Below, in pieces: positions 26,634 through 36,831 of a DNA stretch of 36,831 nt (the stretch's first letter is position 1; every line of letters starts with the position of its first letter). The stretch covers positions 13,195 to 50,025 of the forward strand of contig PBXF01000031.1 of NCBI GenBank assembly GCA_002727515.1, read 5' to 3'. Source of the stretch: Methanobacteriota archaeon. GTDB lineage: Archaea > Thermoplasmatota > Poseidoniia > Poseidoniales > Poseidoniaceae. Below the pieces are notes generated by a model that was given only the letters and a program-made list of their open reading frames with translations, was not told the origin of the DNA and did no database searches. A program made the position numbers and the translations under genes.

Positions 26634-27431
26634 ATGAATCTAGATTGGGAAGACATTTACTGGAAAGACCCTGATGGAGGAACAATTCTCCTTCATGGCA
26701 TATTACCAACGGTAGTTTTCCCAAATGGCTTGCGACCTAGAGTTCAATGGCATGGATTAGGTATACTTGCATCCACTGAAGAAGAAGAAGTATGGGCAGA
26801 AGAAGAGAAATCTGAAGCAGAAGATCCTGGAATTAATCTTGATAGCGCAATACTCAATGGCGGATTGGATAGTTTATACTTAGAAATGTTGACCTGGGTT
26901 GAAGGATTACAAGTTGGTAAATTCCCTGACCCAGAACCAAGAAGACTTCACAAAGCCGCTAGAACACACGAAAGGCCTGTTTTCTTTATTGAACCAGAAA
27001 TGTCTGATGACGATTGGGCAGAATTTCTAGAAAAAGAAGCACATGCAATGACTAGACCACGTAAATTACTGAAGATTGTTTTCACTGCCAGAAGATGGCG
27101 TAAATCGATAAAAAAGGTCAGACCACTAGTTATTGAACAACCTTCAAGGGAACCTGATGGATTACAAGCAGCCAGTGCTTTAGCTGCAACATGGTGGAAA
27201 CTAAATAGAGAAAATTCGATTGAAGAATTGAACAATCGAAAAGACATGAGATTTGCAGGAAGATTACGAGGCAGTCTCAAAGAATTGCGTGATTCGCATG
27301 GAGACGATGCTTTACTTCTTGTTCCAATTCAGCAGGCATGGAGAGAATCGATGGTGAAAGCGTTGGACACTCATCCTGAACCAGAGGAGGTTTCATCACA
27401 GAGTTCTTCCTCGGAAGGAGAGGAGGAGTGA
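26634..27431 (+). CDS. Unknown soluble protein in TBP-like operon
   Basis: The 265-residue product has no signal peptide or membrane segment. It opens with a beta-rich region (GGTILLHGILPTVVFPNGLR), then an acidic patch (STEEEEVWAEEEKSEAED), a central basic helical part (RKLLKIVFTARRWRKSIKKV), and ends in an acidic Ser/Glu tail. I recognise no family. It starts six bases after the giant surface protein and ends two bases before the TBP-like ATG, so all are probably on one transcript. The alternating acidic and basic blocks resemble proteins that bind nucleic acid or other charged partners, but that is only a guess. Confidence 0.68.
   Translation: MNLDWEDIYWKDPDGGTILLHGILPTVVFPNGLRPRVQWHGLGILASTEEEEVWAEEEKSEAEDPGINLDSAILNGGLDSLYLEMLTWVEGLQVGKFPDPEPRRLHKAARTHERPVFFIEPEMSDDDWAEFLEKEAHAMTRPRKLLKIVFTARRWRKSIKKVRPLVIEQPSREPDGLQAASALAATWWKLNRENSIEELNNRKDMRFAGRLRGSLKELRDSHGDDALLLVPIQQAWRESMVKALDTHPEPEEVSSQSSSSEGEEE
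27421..27426 (+). promoter_or_regulatory. Shine-Dalgarno AGGAGG for the TBP-like gene
   Basis: AGGAGG, seven bases before ATG 27434, lies inside the last codons of the upstream gene. It decides between ATG 27434 and the in-frame GTG 27428. Confidence 0.75.
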
Positions 27432-27433
27432 AA

Positions 27434-27970
27434 ATGTCTGACAATAATATCGATGTAAGAGTCGAAAATATTCTTGTTCGTTTCAGCGTATCTCCGCCAA
27501 TCGACCTAGAAGAAGCAGTTGAAAGACTGGGCGGAGTAAAGAACGGTGATGTAATCATCAAAGCCTTGGACGCACCGAGGGCAACTCTAGTCATCGACGC
27601 TCAAGGTAGAATAATTGTTCACGGCACTCATAGAATTGGGGCAGCTAGGGCTGCAGCAAAAGAAATGCTTCTAAGAATGGGCAGGGATGAGTCCGGAATG
27701 ACAACCGAACTCGGCCCTATCGTCGCATCTTTCGAATTCGGGGAAGTTGTCCCTGTCCACGACCTTCGTGCTAATCTACAAAGTGGAACGCAGAGTTTTG
27801 ATGAAAGGCTGGGTTGCATGAGATTAAATGACACACGTCACGACCTTGAATTACTAATCTGGCCAAATGGGAAGTGTGTTGCATTGAATGCAAGACACCC
27901 AAATATGGTTGCAATGGCAGCTGTACATTGGAAAACAAAATTTGCTGATAAAAAATCGATGAAGGTGTAG
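27434..27970 (+). CDS. Divergent TATA-binding-protein-like (two-repeat TBP fold) protein
   Basis: The 178-residue protein has the length and two-repeat layout of archaeal TBP. Repeat 1 (about 7-82): VRVENILVRFSVSPPIDLEE, then LDAPRATLVIDAQGRIIVHG and a helix RIGAARAAAKEMLLRM. These align with TBP's IENIVASxxLxxxLDL, DDPKxALLIFSSGKLVVTGAK and the following helix. Repeat 2 (about 94-168): GPIVASFEFGEVVPVHDL, then DLELLIWPNGKCVALNARH. However, the FPG segments and the Phe pairs that intercalate and kink TATA DNA are missing in both repeats (GDVIIKAL and VIDAQG in repeat 1, LGCMRL and LIWPNG in repeat 2). It may be a specialised paralogue with altered DNA or partner binding; a canonical TBP is expected elsewhere in the genome. 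Flanked within 2-3 bases on both sides, it is clearly in an operon. Confidence 0.7.
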   Translation: MSDNNIDVRVENILVRFSVSPPIDLEEAVERLGGVKNGDVIIKALDAPRATLVIDAQGRIIVHGTHRIGAARAAAKEMLLRMGRDESGMTTELGPIVASFEFGEVVPVHDLRANLQSGTQSFDERLGCMRLNDTRHDLELLIWPNGKCVALNARHPNMVAMAAVHWKTKFADKKSMKV

Positions 27971-30048: not shown

Positions 30049-30070
30049 CACCTACCCTATAGGGTAGGTG
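30049..30070. promoter_or_regulatory. Perfect 22-bp palindrome over the fabI ribosome-binding site
   Basis: CACCTACCCTA followed directly by its reverse complement TAGGGTAGGTG. The right end supplies the AGGTG ribosome site (30066-30070) for the enoyl reductase start at 30077. As DNA it is an ideal dimeric repressor operator; as RNA it would fold back and hide the ribosome site. Either way it is well placed to control the fabI-megasynthase operon. Confidence 0.65.
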
Positions 30071-30076
30071 CTCATA

Positions 30077-30871
30077 ATGCTTGGATTACAAGGTAAAGTT
30101 GCATTTGTATTTGGTGTGGCCAGCGAAGACTCGATTGCTTGGGCTATTTGCAAGAGTCTCGCAGAGGCTGGTGTCACGCTATACCTCGGTTATCAGAAAA
30201 GATTCATGTCCAGAGTCTTCCAATTAAAGGACAAATTACCTGCTATTGCAGGCTTCTATCCTCTCGATGTTGCATCAGATGCAGACACAAAGGAGTTTTT
30301 CGACAGTTTCAGCAAAGAAAATCCGTGGGTTAAAGCGGACATTCTAATCCACGCAATTGGTTTTGCACCTCGAGAATGCTTTGACAGACCGATACTTTTC
30401 GTTGACGATGATAAAATCAATACAGCGTTTACAATTTCTGCTAACTCCTTACAGCGATGTTTGAAATTCGCATTACCATACCTGAATCCAGGCTCTTCAA
30501 CAATCACTTTGACCTATGCAGCATCGACAAGATATGTTCCCTCATATGGAATCATGAGCATGGCAAAGGCAGCACTTGAATGCTGGACAAGAGAACTTGC
30601 TTGCCATTTGGGGCCTGAAGGCCACAGAGTAAATTCAATCTCCAGTGGCCCGATTAGAACTATTGCTGCAAGCGGGATACCTGGCTTTGACAACATCCTA
30701 GACCATGTAGCAGAAAACGCTCCACTCAGAAGAAATGTCACTCAGAGTGATGTTGCAGGATGTACAACATGGCTTGCAAGCCAACTATCTGCAGGAGTTA
30801 CAGGCCAGTGTATTCATGTCGATGCAGGCTACTCGATAACGATGGTTCCTTCGAGTATCATGGGGGAGTGA
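30077..30871 (+). CDS. fabI: FabI-type enoyl-[acyl-carrier-protein] reductase
   Basis: The 264-residue SDR protein carries the FabI-specific features: GLQGKVAFVFGVASEDSIAW at the cofactor site, a catalytic Tyr/Tyr-x6-Lys set in STRYVPSYGIMSMAKAALE, and GPIRTIAASGIPGF, close to the E. coli FabI substrate-binding loop. It would reduce trans-2-enoyl-ACP with NAD(P)H, the final reduction of a chain-extension cycle. The start at ATG 30077 is chosen over GTG 30068 because AGGTG precedes it by six bases and the protein then begins normally. FabI is unusual in archaea. It stops two bases before the megasynthase, which lacks an enoyl reductase domain in the part visible, so the two probably work together. 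Confidence 0.9.
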   Translation: MLGLQGKVAFVFGVASEDSIAWAICKSLAEAGVTLYLGYQKRFMSRVFQLKDKLPAIAGFYPLDVASDADTKEFFDSFSKENPWVKADILIHAIGFAPRECFDRPILFVDDDKINTAFTISANSLQRCLKFALPYLNPGSSTITLTYAASTRYVPSYGIMSMAKAALECWTRELACHLGPEGHRVNSISSGPIRTIAASGIPGFDNILDHVAENAPLRRNVTQSDVAGCTTWLASQLSAGVTGQCIHVDAGYSITMVPSSIMGE

Positions 30872-30873
30872 AC

Positions 30874-33800
30874 ATGACAATTACAACCAAAGATGGCAAG
30901 GAATGCGACGGATTAGACCAAGCTCCATTCGAACCGATTGCAGTTATTGGCATGGCTGCACTAATGCCAGATGCTACCAGTATCGAAGAGTTCTGGCAGA
31001 ACATAATCGATGCACATGTCTCCATTAAAGAAGTCCCCTCGCATCGATGGGATCCTGAAATTTACTGGGAACAAAGTGGCCCTGGGAAGGTAACTGAAGG
31101 AAAGACATACTCAAAGATTGGAGGATTTGTCGAAGAATTTGAATTCGATTGGAGAAGATGGAGACAACCTCCTGGCTCAATACCTCAAATCGACCCATGT
31201 CAATTGTGGGCGGTAACCGTTTCTGCAGATGCTCTAGACGACGCAGGATATGGCGAAGGCGGCAAAGTCCTAGACAGAGCCAGAACCGGTGTGGTTTTCG
31301 CTAATGCTCTTGGAGGCGAAAATCGATCTGAATCAAACCTTAGAGTATTCAGCCAAGAGATGAGAAAAATCGCAATTGACAACGGAGTGACACCTGAGCA
31401 GGCAGACGCTATGGTTGAGAAAATGTGTGAAGGGAAACCACGAATCAATGAAGATACAATGCCTGGTGAACTAGCAAATGTAGTGAGCGGAAGAGTCGCA
31501 AATTTACTAGACTTACAAGGCCCAAATTACTCTACAGATGCAGCATGCGCATCTTCAATGGCCGCTTTACTCGATGCTTGCAGACTATTGCAGAACAGAC
31601 AAGTTGACACGATGTTAGCCGGTGCTACAGACAGATGCATGGAAGCGCCAACATATGCTAAATTCAGTGCAATTGGTGCGCTATCAGCAACTCATTCTAC
31701 GCCTTTCGACGCTAAAGCAAATGGTTTCGTAATGGGTGAAGGCGCTGGTGTTTTACTTCTCAAGAGATTATCAGATGCGATTCGAGATGATGATGATATC
31801 AAAGCAGTCATTCGTGGCGTAGGAGGTTCTTCTGATGGAAGAGGCAAGGGCATTACTGCGCCTAGTCAGCGAGGACAAGTTCAAGCTGTTAGTCGAGCAT
31901 ATTCACAAGCGGGCTATGAACCTGCAACTGTTGAATTAGTCGAAGCACATGGCACTTCTACAAAGGTTGGAGATGCCACTGAATTATCCACACTATCCAT
32001 GCTTTGGAATGGTTTAGATGGCGGAGACCACATCGCCGTTGGCTCTGTAAAGAGCCAGATTGGACACCTGAAAGCAGCCGCTGGAATTGCAGGAATAATG
32101 AAGGCCTGTAATGCGCTTTACTACAAAACAATCCCGCCAAGTGCTGGATTTGTTGACCCAAATCCTACTGTCGAATGGAATGAGATTCCATTCTTCGTCC
32201 CTACAGAAGCCAGAGATTGGCCAGAACCTGAGTCTCACCCTAGGAGAGCAGGAATTTCGGCATTCGGCTTTGGCGGCACTAATTTCCACGTTGCATTGGA
32301 AGATTATGTCCCCTCATACCATTCACAAATGGCTCAGCACTGGGAAACAAAATGGAAAACATACTCTGGATTTGAAGAAACTTCTAGTGAATTGAATGCC
32401 ACAATGACGCATGATGAGTTGAAAGAAGTAGAAGGCGGAATGTTGCTATTATCTGGCAAATCTACTGAACAAATTCTAAGCAAATTATCACAAATTTCGA
32501 TTCCTTCTGTTAATTTCGACAATGACCCTAGTGGCGTAAGACTATCTTTCGAACTCCAAAATCACTGGTCATATGATGCAAGCGATAACGTAAGGATGGC
32601 TCTGATTGCAACAAGTTGGGCAGAGTTATCAAAACGCATCGATCTAGTTAGCAAGGCTATTGCCGACAAAGGCAAGTGGGGATTCCTTGCTAGTCAAGGA
32701 ATATTGGTTACAGATGAAGACGCTATGCCGGAAGGTGCTAAGGTAGCACACATGTATCCGGGTCAAGGTAGCCAGTATGTCGGAATGACACTTGACCTAT
32801 ACAAGAGATTCAAAGGAGTGCAAGACGTTTGGGCTAAATCTGACATTACGATGTCGGATGTGCTTGGTGGTGAAACGCTGTCTTCTTTCGTGCTGAGAAC
32901 AAATCTTAGCGATGAAGAAAAGAAAGAAGCCGAATTCAAATTAAAGCAAACAGAGTACACTCAACCTGCAATGTTAACTGCAGACCTCGCAATTGAATCA
33001 GCATTGAATGCGTATGGATTCAAACCAGACATGGTTGCTGGACATAGCCTTGGAGAATACGCTGCTTTGATGAGCGCAGGAATACTTGACATGGACGGTG
33101 CACTAAGAGCGGCAGCAGCACGTGGAACGGAGATGGGCAGTGTTGAAATCGATGATAAAGGACTGATGGCTAGCGTAACTGCTCCTTACGAAAGAATCGC
33201 AGAAATAATCGAAGAAATCGATGGATACGTAATTGCTGCGAACAAGAATTCTCCGAAGATGACTGTAATCGCAGGAGAGACTGAACCGGTAAAGCAGGCT
33301 ATGTCTAAATTTGAGGCGGAAGGCTTCCAATGTGTGCAACTTGCTACAAGTCACGCTTTCCATTCTAGGATAGTAGCTCCGGCAAATGAACCACTACGCC
33401 GATTCCTTGAGGGATTAGAGATCAGATGGCCTTCAATTCCAATCACAAGTAACGTTGACGGAGGATGGTATCCAATGGATGATGGCGGAGATTCTAAGAC
33501 TGCTATTTTATCCAAATTAGCCCCGCAAATGGCATCCAGCGTTGAGTGGACAAAGCAAATAAATTCGATGTACGAAGCAGGTGCAAGAATTTTCTTAGAA
33601 GTTGGCCCAAAGCGAGCATTGACCGTTTTCGCAACTCAGATTTTGGAAGATATGCCTTCGGTTTCTGTAATGACAAATCACCCGAAAACAGGTGGTATAA
33701 CCTCACTATTAACCGCACTTGGAACCATGGCACTTGCTGGAAGAGTTCCTAAGAAATTAGATAAAAACGACTCGAGTTTAACTGAAGCATTTAGAGCAGG

Positions 33801-36800
33801 TCCCGTTGAAGCGAGTTCAGGCATTACCAAACCTGCAACGCCTCTCAAAGACAGAAGTAGACCTCTGCCCTCAAAGGGAGGCATGGTTGCAGCCCAAACA
33901 ATCACTGTGAAGGCGGACACATATGTCGATCCTGATGCTGCAAAGATAAACTTAGTTGGAAGTTTAATTTCAACCCACTGTGGCTATCCTGCCAAATTCT
34001 GTCAGGGTAATGTCAACATGAGAGAGGTACTAGGGATGACCGACTCTCAGATTCAGTCGGTCATTCAAACAGTTCATTCCAGTTGTCAAACAGACCCTGA
34101 ATGGGACGTGTCTACGGCAACTACAGTTGCAGACATTACCAGATGGATTGTATCCGCACCTGCAAACACAACCTCTGCAACTATGATGAAGGCAGACAAT
34201 AGAGGGCAAGACCCATTCGTAATCACTGGTGTATCGCTCGGCCTACCTGGTGGAGAGAGAGTTTTCGACGAGGGTAATTTCGAGAAATTAATTCGAGGGG
34301 AAACATGTATTTCAGAAGTAACTGATGACTACAAACAGAGATTGCTTGACAAAAACATTGTTCGATTAATCAAAGGGAGAGATGGAAGCGTAGGCATGGA
34401 CGCAGCCAAAGAATTCGGCGACATACCACAACTGGCTGGAGTAAAATCTGCATTTGACCCAGAAACCGAATTTGGCATCAATGGAAAGATTGCTGCGGCA
34501 TGGGACATAGCAACTCAACTCGCCTGTGCAGCCGGATTGATCGCACTCAGAGATGCAGGCATTCCGTTAACTCCGGTTGAACAAGTTGGAAAGGGCGGAT
34601 TAAGACTAATCAAATCATGGGAAGTTCCGTCCGTATACAGAGATAGGACTGGAATTGTATTCGCATCCTGTTTCGCAGGCCACCAAATGGCAGCCAAACA
34701 TGCCAAGATGAATGGAGATGACGGAGAAGGTCGATTCGACAGAAGGTATCTATTCCAAATCCTGAATATGGGTCATTCACAATTTGCTCAACATGTAGGA
34801 ATTCGTGGACCTAACACTACAATTAACCTAGCATGCGCATCTGCAACCGCTGCTTTCGGTGTAGCAGAAGATTGGCTGGCTAACGACAGATGTGACAGAG
34901 TTGTAATCGTTTCAGCTGATGACGTCACGGGTGACGACCTGTGGGAATGGATTGGTTCTGGATTCGCATCAAGTGGCGCTGCTGCTACAAACAATGTAGT
35001 TGAAGATACTGCATTACCATTTGACAAGAGAAGGAATGGTTTGGTTCTGGGTATGGGCGCAGCAGCGTTCGTAGTTGAGAGAAAATCTGAATCTGATGCA
35101 AGAGGAGTTCAACCAATTGCGGAACTACTTGGAACAAAAATTGCCAACTCTGCATTCCACGGAACTAGACTTGATGTCGACCATGTAGCACAAACTGTTG
35201 ATAATTTCATTGAAGAAATGGAGAATCAATGGTCTATTGACAGGCACCAAATGGCTCCAGACACCGTATTCTTTTCACACGAGACATACACTCCGGCTAG
35301 AGGCGGTTCTGCCCAAGCAGAAGTGAGAGCGCTCAGAGACACATTCGGAAAGAGTGCGGACGCTCTAGTTATTGCAAATACCAAAGGTTTCACTGGCCAT
35401 CCGATGGGAGTCGGAATCGAGGATGCTTCAATGTTCTACGGTTTGTTAACAGGAAAGATTCCACCTATAGCAAATCACAAGGAAGAAGATCCAGAACTTG
35501 GTAATCTAAACCTATCCAAGGGTGGAAGTTATTCCAATTTGAAGTATGGAATTCGATTTGCGGCTGGCTTTGGAAGCCAAATCGCATTATCACTAGTCAG
35601 AAAATATGAATTCCAAGGTGAAAGAATCAACAAACAGAAATTGATTTCTTGGAATCAGGCATTAGCGGGCACACAGGAATTGGAATTAAGAATTCTACAA
35701 AACAAATTGGTTGCATATGTCGACGGTGAAAATAATCTACATGGAGGCGTACAAGGAGAAGTTTATGCCGTCCCTGATAAGAATCAACCAGCGGCTCCAG
35801 TAGTTCATGCTACACCCGAACCTGAACCAACTCCAGCACCTACACCAGCTCCTGCTGCGCCAGCACCTGCTGCACCAGCGCCTGCTGCCAATGTTTCTGG
35901 AGACATCAATCAGGCTGTGATTGATGTTGTAGTCAAACACACTGGATATCCTGCAGACTTTGTTGAATTAGACCAAGACCTAGAAGGCGAGTTGGGAATT
36001 GACACTGTAAAACAGGCTGAAATTATGGCCGATATTAGATCTCAATTCAATCTGCCAGTAGATGAGGATTTCATACTATCAGACTACCCTACATTGAATC
36101 ACATGATAGGCTACATTCACAAGATGACTGGAGGAGAAGCGCCTGCTCCTGCTACGGTTACTCAAGCCCCTGAGCCAGAGGTTGTAGCCGTGCCAGAACC
36201 AAAACTTGAGCCTGTTACAACATCTGCACCTGTTGTTGATAGTGGAGAAATCCAACCTAAACTGATAGGTGTTGTCGTCAAACATACAGGATATCCTGAA
36301 GATTTCATTGAGATGGACCAGGACTTGGAAGGTGAATTAGGAATAGACACCGTAAAACAAGCTGAAATTATGGCTGATGTAAGGGATATATTCAATCTAC
36401 CAGTTGACGAAGACTTCGTTTTGGCTGAGCACCCAACTCTGAATCATTTCGTTGCATATATCCAGAAAATGACTGGAGGAGAGGTCACATCTGCACCAGT
36501 AGTTACAGCCTCGGCTCCTGAACCGACTCCTTCCCCTGTTGCAGAAATTGCAACACCTGCTCCTGCAGTACCGGTTGCAGATAGTGGTGAAATTCAACCA
36601 AAATTAATCGGGGTTGTTGTCAAGCACACAGGTTATCCTGAAGATTTCATAGAGATGGACCAAGACTTGGAAGGAGAACTAGGAATTGATACTGTAAAAC
36701 AAGCAGAAATCATGGCTGATGTGAGAGAAATTTTCGACTTACCTGTCGACGAAGATTTCGTTTTAGCAGACCACCCAACGTTGAATCATTTTGTTGCCTA

Positions 36801-36831
36801 CATTCAGAAAATGACTGGAGGCAGTACACAA
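30874..36831 (+). CDS. PfaA-like multidomain ketosynthase megasynthase, truncated by window edge
   Basis: From ATG 30874 (GGGGGAG five bases upstream) the frame is open for 1986 codons to the window end. Domains in order: KS1 (about 15-470; Cys225 in DAACASS, His359 in EAHGTST, His398 in SQIGHLKAAAG); acyltransferase (625-935; GQGSQYVGM at 630, Ser725 in GHSLGEYAA, and SHAFHS, the malonyl-type HAFH motif); a degenerate carrier-like domain (1023-1090); KS2 (1113-1580; Cys1321 in LACASATAAF, His1469 in HETYTPARGG, GHPMG); an Ala/Pro linker; and three carrier domains (1677-1754, 1790-1869, 1904-1983). The layout recalls the PUFA synthase subunit PfaA (KS-AT-ACPn), with an extra internal KS. All carriers have Thr in place of the phosphopantetheine Ser. 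KR and DH domains, if any, lie beyond the window. The product is unknown. Confidence 0.9.
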   Translation, partial: MTITTKDGKECDGLDQAPFEPIAVIGMAALMPDATSIEEFWQNIIDAHVSIKEVPSHRWDPEIYWEQSGPGKVTEGKTYSKIGGFVEEFEFDWRRWRQPPGSIPQIDPCQLWAVTVSADALDDAGYGEGGKVLDRARTGVVFANALGGENRSESNLRVFSQEMRKIAIDNGVTPEQADAMVEKMCEGKPRINEDTMPGELANVVSGRVANLLDLQGPNYSTDAACASSMAALLDACRLLQNRQVDTMLAGATDRCMEAPTYAKFSAIGALSATHSTPFDAKANGFVMGEGAGVLLLKRLSDAIRDDDDIKAVIRGVGGSSDGRGKGITAPSQRGQVQAVSRAYSQAGYEPATVELVEAHGTSTKVGDATELSTLSMLWNGLDGGDHIAVGSVKSQIGHLKAAAGIAGIMKACNALYYKTIPPSAGFVDPNPTVEWNEIPFFVPTEARDWPEPESHPRRAGISAFGFGGTNFHVALEDYVPSYHSQMAQHWETKWKTYSGFEETSSELNATMTHDELKEVEGGMLLLSGKSTEQILSKLSQISIPSVNFDNDPSGVRLSFELQNHWSYDASDNVRMALIATSWAELSKRIDLVSKAIADKGKWGFLASQGILVTDEDAMPEGAKVAHMYPGQGSQYVGMTLDLYKRFKGVQDVWAKSDITMSDVLGGETLSSFVLRTNLSDEEKKEAEFKLKQTEYTQPAMLTADLAIESALNAYGFKPDMVAGHSLGEYAALMSAGILDMDGALRAAAARGTEMGSVEIDDKGLMASVTAPYERIAEIIEEIDGYVIAANKNSPKMTVIAGETEPVKQAMSKFEAEGFQCVQLATSHAFHSRIVAPANEPLRRFLEGLEIRWPSIPITSNVDGGWYPMDDGGDSKTAILSKLAPQMASSVEWTKQINSMYEAGARIFLEVGPKRALTVFATQILEDMPSVSVMTNHPKTGGITSLLTALGTMALAGRVPKKLDKNDSSLTEAFRAGPVEASSGITKPATPLKDRSRPLPSKGGMVAAQTITVKADTYVDPDAAKINLVGSLISTHCGYPAKFCQGNVNMREVLGMTDSQIQSVIQTVHSSCQTDPEWDVSTATTVADITRWIVSAPANTTSATMMKADNRGQDPFVITGVSLGLPGGERVFDEGNFEKLIRGETCISEVTDDYKQRLLDKNIVRLIKGRDGSVGMDAAKEFGDIPQLAGVKSAFDPETEFGINGKIAAAWDIATQLACAAGLIALRDAGIPLTPVEQVGKGGLRLIKSWEVPSVYRDRTGIVFASCFAGHQMAAKHAKMNGDDGEGRFDRRYLFQILNMGHSQFAQHVGIRGPNTTINLACASATAAFGVAEDWLANDRCDRVVIVSADDVTGDDLWEWIGSGFASSGAAATNNVVEDTALPFDKRRNGLVLGMGAAAFVVERKSESDARGVQPIAELLGTKIANSAFHGTRLDVDHVAQTVDNFIEEMENQWSIDRHQMAPDTVFFSHETYTPARGGSAQAEVRALRDTFGKSADALVIANTKGFTGHPMGVGIEDASMFYGLLTGKIPPIANHKEEDPELGNLNLSKGGSYSNLKYGIRFAAGFGSQIALSLVRKYEFQGERINKQKLISWNQALAGTQELELRILQNKLVAYVDGENNLHGGVQGEVYAVPDKNQPAAPVVHATPEPEPTPAPTPAPAAPAPAAPAPAANVSGDINQAVIDVVVKHTGYPADFVELDQDLEGELGIDTVKQAEIMADIRSQFNLPVDEDFILSDYPTLNHMIGYIHKMTGGEAPAPATVTQAPEPEVVAVPEPKLEPVTTSAPVVDSGEIQPKLIGVVVKHTGYPEDFIEMDQDLEGELGIDTVKQAEIMADVRDIFNLPVDEDFVLAEHPTLNHFVAYIQKMTGGEVTSAPVVTASAPEPTPSPVAEIATPAPAVPVADSGEIQPKLIGVVVKHTGYPEDFIEMDQDLEGELGIDTVKQAEIMADVREIFDLPVDEDFVLADHPTLNHFVAYIQKMTGGSTQ
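35902..36822 (+). repeat. Three tandem carrier-domain repeats
   Basis: Three copies about 115 codons apart at 35902-36135, 36241-36480 and 36583-36822, joined by Pro/Ala/Glu-rich linkers. Copies 2 and 3 are almost identical in protein sequence from GEIQPKLIGVVVKHTGYPED to the KMTGG end, while copy 1 is more diverged, implying a recent duplication of the second unit. Synonymous differences show that the DNA copies have had time to drift. More copies may follow beyond the window. Confidence 0.85.

Follow-up and report, generated by a model that had tools for sequence, protein, structure and literature searches.

Can an archaeon of marine group II (MGII) build acyl chains on a carrier protein? 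Acyl carrier protein (ACP) and its machinery are described as missing from most archaea and as having reached a few of them by transfer (PMC3533463; here and below, PMC numbers stand for excerpts of the papers concerned). The question is raised by a stretch of 36,831 nucleotides, hereafter the window, from a Methanobacteriota archaeon of the family Poseidoniaceae (assembly GCA_002727515.1, contig PBXF01000031.1, positions 13,195 to 50,025), at the right end of which fabI is followed by a megasynthase gene. Most likely, this locus is part of a type I fatty-acid-type synthase that is complete, works iteratively with a trans-acting FabI and a dedicated phosphopantetheinyl transferase (PPTase), and is ancient in MGII, since the genes and catalytic residues are conserved and FabI and PPTase co-occur with the synthase. 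We consider it probable that the fabI-megasynthase-PPTase module makes acyl chains iteratively from malonyl units. Judged by its sequences, the system is real, conserved and mechanistically complete on paper, and is an archaeal variant of a bacterial kind of synthase. The parts found in the window, including the ketosynthase (KS) and acyltransferase (AT) domains, are as follows.

30077..30871, plus strand: fabI, predicted trans-acting enoyl-ACP reductase of the SDR type, 264 aa (Pfam, residue alignment)
30874..36831, plus strand: megasynthase, first 1986 codons, running off the window (open reading frame; full length about 2650-3100 aa in relatives)
30931..32151, plus strand: KS1, residues 20-426, Cys-His-His retained (Pfam, alignment)
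32752..33735, plus strand: AT, residues 627-954, GHSLG and HAFH motifs (Pfam, alignment)
33955..34128, plus strand: pseudo-ACP linker, residues 1028-1085, Asp1057 at the carrier site (mapped from the relative L020)
34210..35607, plus strand: KS2, about residues 1113-1578, Cys-His-His retained (alignment, PDB comparison)
35896..36126, plus strand: ACP1, Thr1711 (codon 36004-36006) at the phosphopantetheine position (ACP profile, alignment)
36238..36471, plus strand: ACP2, Thr1826 (codon 36349-36351) (ACP profile, alignment)
36577..36813, plus strand: ACP3, Thr1940 (codon 36691-36693) (ACP profile, alignment)

The original prediction described a canonical FabI two bases ahead of a KS-AT-(ACP-like)-KS-ACPx3 megasynthase, and open reading frame coordinates, Pfam matches and alignments bear out this layout. 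fabI runs from an ATG at 30077 (an alternative in-frame GTG at 30068 is possible) to a stop at 30869-30871; the megasynthase ATG at 30874 follows two bases later and its frame is still open at the window end, 36831. The feature had been started at 30049, which is the first base of a 22-bp palindrome and not of a gene. FabI shows the adh_short_C2 fold (PF13561; 226.6 bits against a Pfam cut-off of 27) and retains both active-site tyrosines and the lysine, and by this combination it belongs with FabI. The word canonical is slightly strong, as the protein is 40% identical to E. coli FabI and stays below the NCBIfam cut-off in the best 25 of 162 matched families (top score 218.9, with 391 needed). 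FabI of the bacterial type II fatty acid synthase (FAS II) shares the fold family and the Tyr-Tyr-Lys residues, but the MGII enzyme differs from it in its archaeal host, its place beside a type I megasynthase and the modest identity to the E. coli protein. A dN/dS of about 0.02 against the counterpart in L006, with dS close to saturation, indicates strong purifying selection on FabI.

Pfam recognizes KS-N (253.8 bits), KS-C, AT and three PP-binding stretches in the window's megasynthase. In an alignment of 45 synthases (20 from MGII including the window, 8 from other archaea and 17 matches to a bacterial query), Cys-His-His of KS1 and KS2 as well as Ser and His of AT are retained in all rows in which the site is covered and unmasked. 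The HAFH motif of AT is, we assume, of the malonyl type. FabF is the closest PDB relative of KS2, and the presence of the Cys and both His residues in KS2 would speak against a role as chain length factor. Between AT and KS2, an ACP profile matches residues 1027-1084 of L020, a full-length MGII relative; the window's own copy gives no match to the profile and is read through its alignment to L020. This linker is regarded as a pseudo-ACP because it has Asp1057 and no carrier hydroxyl. Among 55 domains of that position range, 49 have an acidic residue at the carrier site (Asp in 45, Glu in 4); Asn and Val occur once each, and the four domains with Thr are probably true ACPs of shorter proteins.

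It had been proposed to look past the window end for a ketoreductase (KR), a dehydratase (DH), further KS domains and a PPTase. In relatives, KR, DH and PPTase are indeed found there, and no further KS is. The L020 synthase (2884 residues) consists of KS (20-426), AT (626-954), a second KS, three ACPs, KR (2359-2492; 73.8 bits), and PKS_DH_N (2571-2657) and PS-DH (2739-2875), both of which exceed their Pfam cut-offs; L017 has no full synthase frame. The KR residues Lys, Ser, Tyr and Asn are retained in the 25 rows shown, and the DH motif HxxxGxxxxP in most of them, with exceptions including L043 (Gly to Asp) and the non-MGII L082 (Pro to Ala). His64 and Glu255 of DH are invariant in a 14-row alignment. 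An AlphaFold model of the domain (pLDDT 83, pTM 0.80) has the dehydratases 5hst and 3kg6 of polyketide synthases (PKSs) as top matches (E 8e-15), so that the modelled fold is that of a PKS-type double-hotdog dehydratase. The next gene after the L020 synthase encodes a Sfp-type PPTase (PF01648, 35 bits, cut-off 25), in which the acidic and W/F-x-x-K-E-A motifs are retained. A thioesterase or reductase domain was not found in the synthase. All activities of the elongation cycle are, by prediction, encoded, which supports the acyl-chain or polyketide assembly system originally proposed.

The same arrangement recurs across MGII. All 50 MGII loci long enough to include the beginning of the synthase have FabI immediately before it, in the same orientation (gap 2-47 bp between BLAST ends); the only other locus in this count, L036 of Nonomuraea, gave no fabI match. 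By BLAST, a PPTase lies no more than 427 bp downstream of the synthase in 41 of 45 MGII loci, some genomes being counted twice in both sets; in L045 (genome G226), PPTase was detected by profile. In 22 relative loci, annotated as Candidatus Poseidoniales, Poseidoniaceae or Euryarchaeota archaeon, the best segments are 60-81% identical. The window's upstream genes at 26634, 27428, 27974 and 28863 keep their order in many relatives, and the operon is thus not absent from other MGII genomes with the same flanking genes, an outcome that would have spoken against it. We took the order of genome G001 (292 genomes, partly incomplete) as the MGII order. The synthase was detected in 184 genomes (E <= 1e-30), FabI in 169 (E <= 1e-45), all of them among the 184, and PPTase (PF01648) in 170, of which 169 are synthase bearers; 156 genomes have all three genes and 107 none. 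The three genes are thus inherited together, and PPTase has no visible client except the synthase, other carrier proteins not having been searched for.

Genomes lacking the synthase are concentrated in one part of the order. In an RpoB tree of 15 of the 108 synthase-less and 16 of the 184 synthase-bearing genomes plus three others, a single clade holds 14 of the 15 synthase-less genomes together with two bearers. The fifteenth, G082, groups as sister to a bearer and is possibly incomplete. Five of 29 genomes searched for RpoB gave no match, the partial G051 was left out, and the position of G331 (branch length 10) is not trusted. The 20 of 108 synthase-less genomes listed measure 1.2-1.6 Mb, versus 1.2-2.3 Mb for bearers. 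Probably, the synthase gene was present early in the order and then lost from most of one clade. G276 is perhaps a mixed bin, as the synthase (68% and 48%) and FabI each match it twice and PPTase four times. A search of the phylum, which we take to be Thermoplasmatota, matched the synthase in 104 of 389 genomes, 17 of them outside the 292 order genomes; ten of the 17 show 34-46% identity among the matches listed.

The closest known system, likened here by its published description, is the Type R secondary lipid synthase of Acidobacteria, Elusimicrobia and Chloroflexi, the product of which is unknown (Shulse and Allen 2011; PMC3098273). Both systems comprise a single protein with KS, MAT, a second KS (CLF in that paper), three to six ACPs and KR, followed by a PPTase gene; the plan is seen in full in L020 and in part in the window, and the downstream PPTase in the 41 of 45 loci given above. 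Unlike Type R, the MGII system is archaeal, widely rather than patchily present and preceded by FabI, and its synthase has the full Cys-His-His in the second KS, a PKS-type DH after KR and the pseudo-ACP linker. Neither 'archaea' nor 'FabI' occurs in the excerpted text of the Type R paper. The synthase of Nonomuraea gerenzanensis (L036), the bacterial query mentioned above, and its matches from Actinomycetota and others share the domain order KS-AT-KS-ACPn-KR-DH and the Thr ACPs with MGII; over 86% of the KS2-to-DH region, L036 is 35% identical to the MGII synthase. By contrast with MGII, a giant acetyl-CoA carboxylase adjoins the L036 synthase and no FabI or PPTase match was found within 28 kb. 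An acyl-CoA dehydrogenase, the synthase and the carboxylase stand in a row at 7187-22132 of L036, and the dehydrogenase might stand in for FabI.

We infer the activity and the chain length of the product as well as the individual steps, which would run as follows. PPTase would attach phosphopantetheine to the tandem ACPs, using Thr in most of the lineages seen, and the ACPs would serve as parallel carriers. AT would load malonyl, KS1 and KS2 would condense, KR would reduce, the double-hotdog DH would dehydrate, and FabI, acting in trans, would reduce the enoyl intermediate to leave the chain saturated. Release may fall to a separate acyltransferase or thioesterase, since neither a thioesterase nor a reductase domain was found in the synthase. 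Malonyl-CoA could, in principle, be supplied by carboxyltransferases, of which three are found in each of ten out of ten tested genomes, two of them synthase-less. The biotin carboxylase, the CoA-synthesis fusion (CTP_transf_like + DUF359), the thioesterase and the enoyl-CoA hydratase pointed out in the original prediction do exist in the window, but they lie about 10-28 kb away, outside the operon; as distant neighbours, these genes do not count as evidence for the assembly system, and the carboxylase and the thioesterase are not supported as operon partners.

Membrane lipids would be the boldest outlet of the synthase. The lipid identity of MGII is described as an open question (PMC6962369), and MGII metagenome-assembled genomes are reported to lack glycerol-1-phosphate dehydrogenase and mostly to have glycerol-3-phosphate (G3P) dehydrogenase (PMC6461757). 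PlsC-type acyltransferases (PF01553), candidate partners of the synthase, are present in 288 of the 292 order genomes and in none of four archaeal controls. We tentatively suggest, as a possibility somewhat short of an even chance, that MGII make saturated straight-chain fatty acids de novo by a Thr-phosphopantetheine type I synthase and that PlsC-type enzymes esterify them into bacterial-like or mixed membranes with a G3P backbone; synthase-less lineages might scavenge fatty acids. Fatty acids in MGII membranes, if real, would answer which lipids these uncultured archaea make. Because this abundant surface-ocean group has a complete synthase together with a reductase and an activating enzyme dedicated to it, the MGII lipid question is directly testable in E. 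coli.

Several observations weigh against the synthase and its outlet as described here. The window itself ends before KR, DH and PPTase, and genomes G002, G111 and G171 have no detectable PPTase despite the presence of synthase and FabI. DH has Glu at the position of the Asp of PKS dehydratases; FabZ uses Glu. Having Thr in place of Ser might make the carriers poorer substrates for modification. PlsC-type genes occur in 182 of 184 genomes with the synthase and in 106 of 108 without it; being equally present without the synthase, they are not tied to it, and an association between the two was not seen across the 292 order genomes. No product is known for the MGII synthase, and in the excerpt on MGII-rich water no unusual intact polar lipids are reported at high abundance (PMC6962369).

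The product could also be only partly reduced, that is, hydroxy, keto or unsaturated like those of heterocyst glycolipid and polyunsaturated fatty acid (PUFA) synthases, with FabI acting in some cycles only. PfaA (TIGR02813) is by far the best NCBIfam match of full-length L020, although its 936 bits miss the cut-off of 1010.1, so that membership in PfaA was rejected, and the omega-3 PUFA synthase PfaA/PfaC/PfaD has the same KS-AT-tandem ACP-KR plan. Hydroxy, keto and polyunsaturated chains are all known from Pfa-like systems (PMC3098273), and the use of FabI, a separate protein, can vary from cycle to cycle. However, the L020 synthase and the two genes downstream contain neither a FabA-type DH pair or isomerase nor a PfaD-type flavin enoyl reductase, in contrast to an omega-3 PUFA system; the DH is PKS-type and FabI is nearly inseparable from the synthase. 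Incomplete reduction thus appears unlikely. Slightly less likely still is a specialised polyketide-like metabolite (signal, part of a pigment, lipopeptide tail) in place of bulk fatty acid. Type I PKS is the name given to a number of related genes in bacteria, and the Type R clusters, too, are without a known product (PMC3098273), but no tailoring genes are visible in the operon, its flanks are syntenic in many MGII, and a basic function fits both the purifying selection on FabI and the fact that, one clade apart, most MGII sampled have the synthase. The complete KR-DH-FabI set, the HAFH motif and the wide presence favour a fatty acid over a polyketide product.

The most unusual feature of this fatty-acid-type synthase is found in its carriers. 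The window's ACPs read LGIDTVK and, when aligned to solved ACPs, their Thr coincides with the Ser of the D-S-L motif; in 1f80 chain D it aligns with a residue printed X, presumably the modified Ser. Having Thr at this site, the three ACPs do not qualify as Ser-type acyl carriers. A profile built from these ACPs was searched against 41 MGII loci, the window, nine other archaeal loci, 120 MGII protein matches and 120 matches to the Nonomuraea query. The 954 tandem ACP matches have Thr in 929, Ser in 21 and Asp in 4 cases. The four Asp matches are, by sequence, linker pseudo-ACPs of truncated proteins and were set aside; all of the remaining 950, which are not independent as the MGII loci, the MGII protein matches and the window overlap, retain a hydroxyl (Thr or Ser). 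In some MGII synthases only two ACPs were detected. Two MGII lineages (10 loci) have Ser in every detected ACP, and the distribution within MGII requires two changes on the KS1+AT+KS2 tree. The synthases of G002, G111 and G171 have Ser ACPs. L084 combines one Ser and three Thr ACPs in a single protein with a fused PPTase. Unlike in MGII, the ACPs of five plasmid-borne Pfa-like relatives with one KS each are Ser in 17 of 17 cases (LGIDSIK or LGVDSIK). Since all tandem ACPs counted have the hydroxyl but differ in the residue that bears it, attachment of phosphopantetheine to Thr is the simplest reading. That the Thr ACPs are not modified, the synthase being a relic or using another carrier, could be argued from Ser being the usual carrier residue and from the lack of a relevant publication on Thr carriers in motif and text searches of the open-access literature; given the constant hydroxyl, the two switches within MGII, the mixed L084 protein and a PPTase distribution that tracks the synthase, we regard this as very improbable. 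As a biochemical prediction, Thr in place of the carrier Ser throughout the family is unusual and easy to test; if true, a large family of synthases shared by archaea and bacteria would be set apart by a new residue for attachment of the prosthetic group.

In KS1+AT+KS2 trees (37 rows under LG+G4, 27 rows under LG+C20; root unplaced), a branch with SH-aLRT support of 100 separates MGII from other archaea and six bacterial representatives. The latter (<72% identity) were drawn from the 94 of 120 bacterial-query matches kept by length and KS motif, and ambiguous X residues were deleted from the MGII rows. The phylum's other archaea form two groups, both closer to bacteria than MGII are. A donor lineage was not found. 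Where names are given, the best 120 matches are archaeal (MGII or Euryarchaeota/Thermoplasmatota); both a single transfer and a deeper ancestry are compatible with the unrooted tree and its narrow bacterial sample. Contamination or a misjoined contig, which bacterial-type genes in an archaeon and the slightly higher GC content of the right end (0.45-0.46 vs 0.38-0.44) might suggest, was rejected as next to impossible in view of the gene order shared with MGII across many assemblies, an operon copy on an MGII contig of 2,064,136 bases and the separate MGII clade.

Outside the order genomes, synthase frames of archaea of the same phylum (L080-L088) span 1880-3800 residues, some being cut by contig ends, and carry N-terminal extensions; some have ACPs at the N terminus, a PPTase fused to them or a carboxylase gene next door. 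PPTase is fused to the synthase in L082, L084 and L085, a giant acetyl-CoA carboxylase follows the L084 synthase and a biotin carboxylase that of L083. In L082, a FabI domain lies within the upstream protein.

For MGII, a putative fatty-acid pathway or genes for ester bonds have been mentioned with reference to Villanueva 2017 (PMC6962369, PMC7852524); earlier work may thus have come across parts of the system. Excerpts of MGII genome papers refer to fatty acid degradation or metabolism (PMC6461757, PMC6336850, PMC9723583, PMC6741140, PMC6864105); none of the terms used for those genome papers occurs in the excerpt of a review (PMC7838436). As far as our searches reach, the archaeal host, the wide presence, FabI as the enoyl reductase, the Thr carriers and the assembled system are new.

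The operon is preceded by one further element.

30049..30070, no strand: perfect 22-bp palindrome CACCTACCCTATAGGGTAGGTG, candidate operator, 6 bases ahead of the fabI ATG

A second copy of the palindrome was not found in the window at up to three mismatches, and none appeared in 100 shuffles. The window and 18 of 41 other MGII upstream regions examined share some form of the palindrome at this position. The pattern matches 11 of 12 scanned genomes, each time beside fabI; the sole match elsewhere, in G048, is doubtful, as the reversed control matches G048 too. No regulon was found in the 12 genomes, and the palindrome is a candidate dedicated operator of the fabI operon. Downstream of PPTase, many MGII have a small MerT-like membrane protein (L020, 19365-19796) in either orientation, and because of this variation it is probably outside the operon. 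Upstream, at 27428-27970, the window encodes a small protein whose one TBP (TATA-binding protein) repeat is divergent; it scores over the Pfam cut-off and is syntenic with the operon in many MGII loci.

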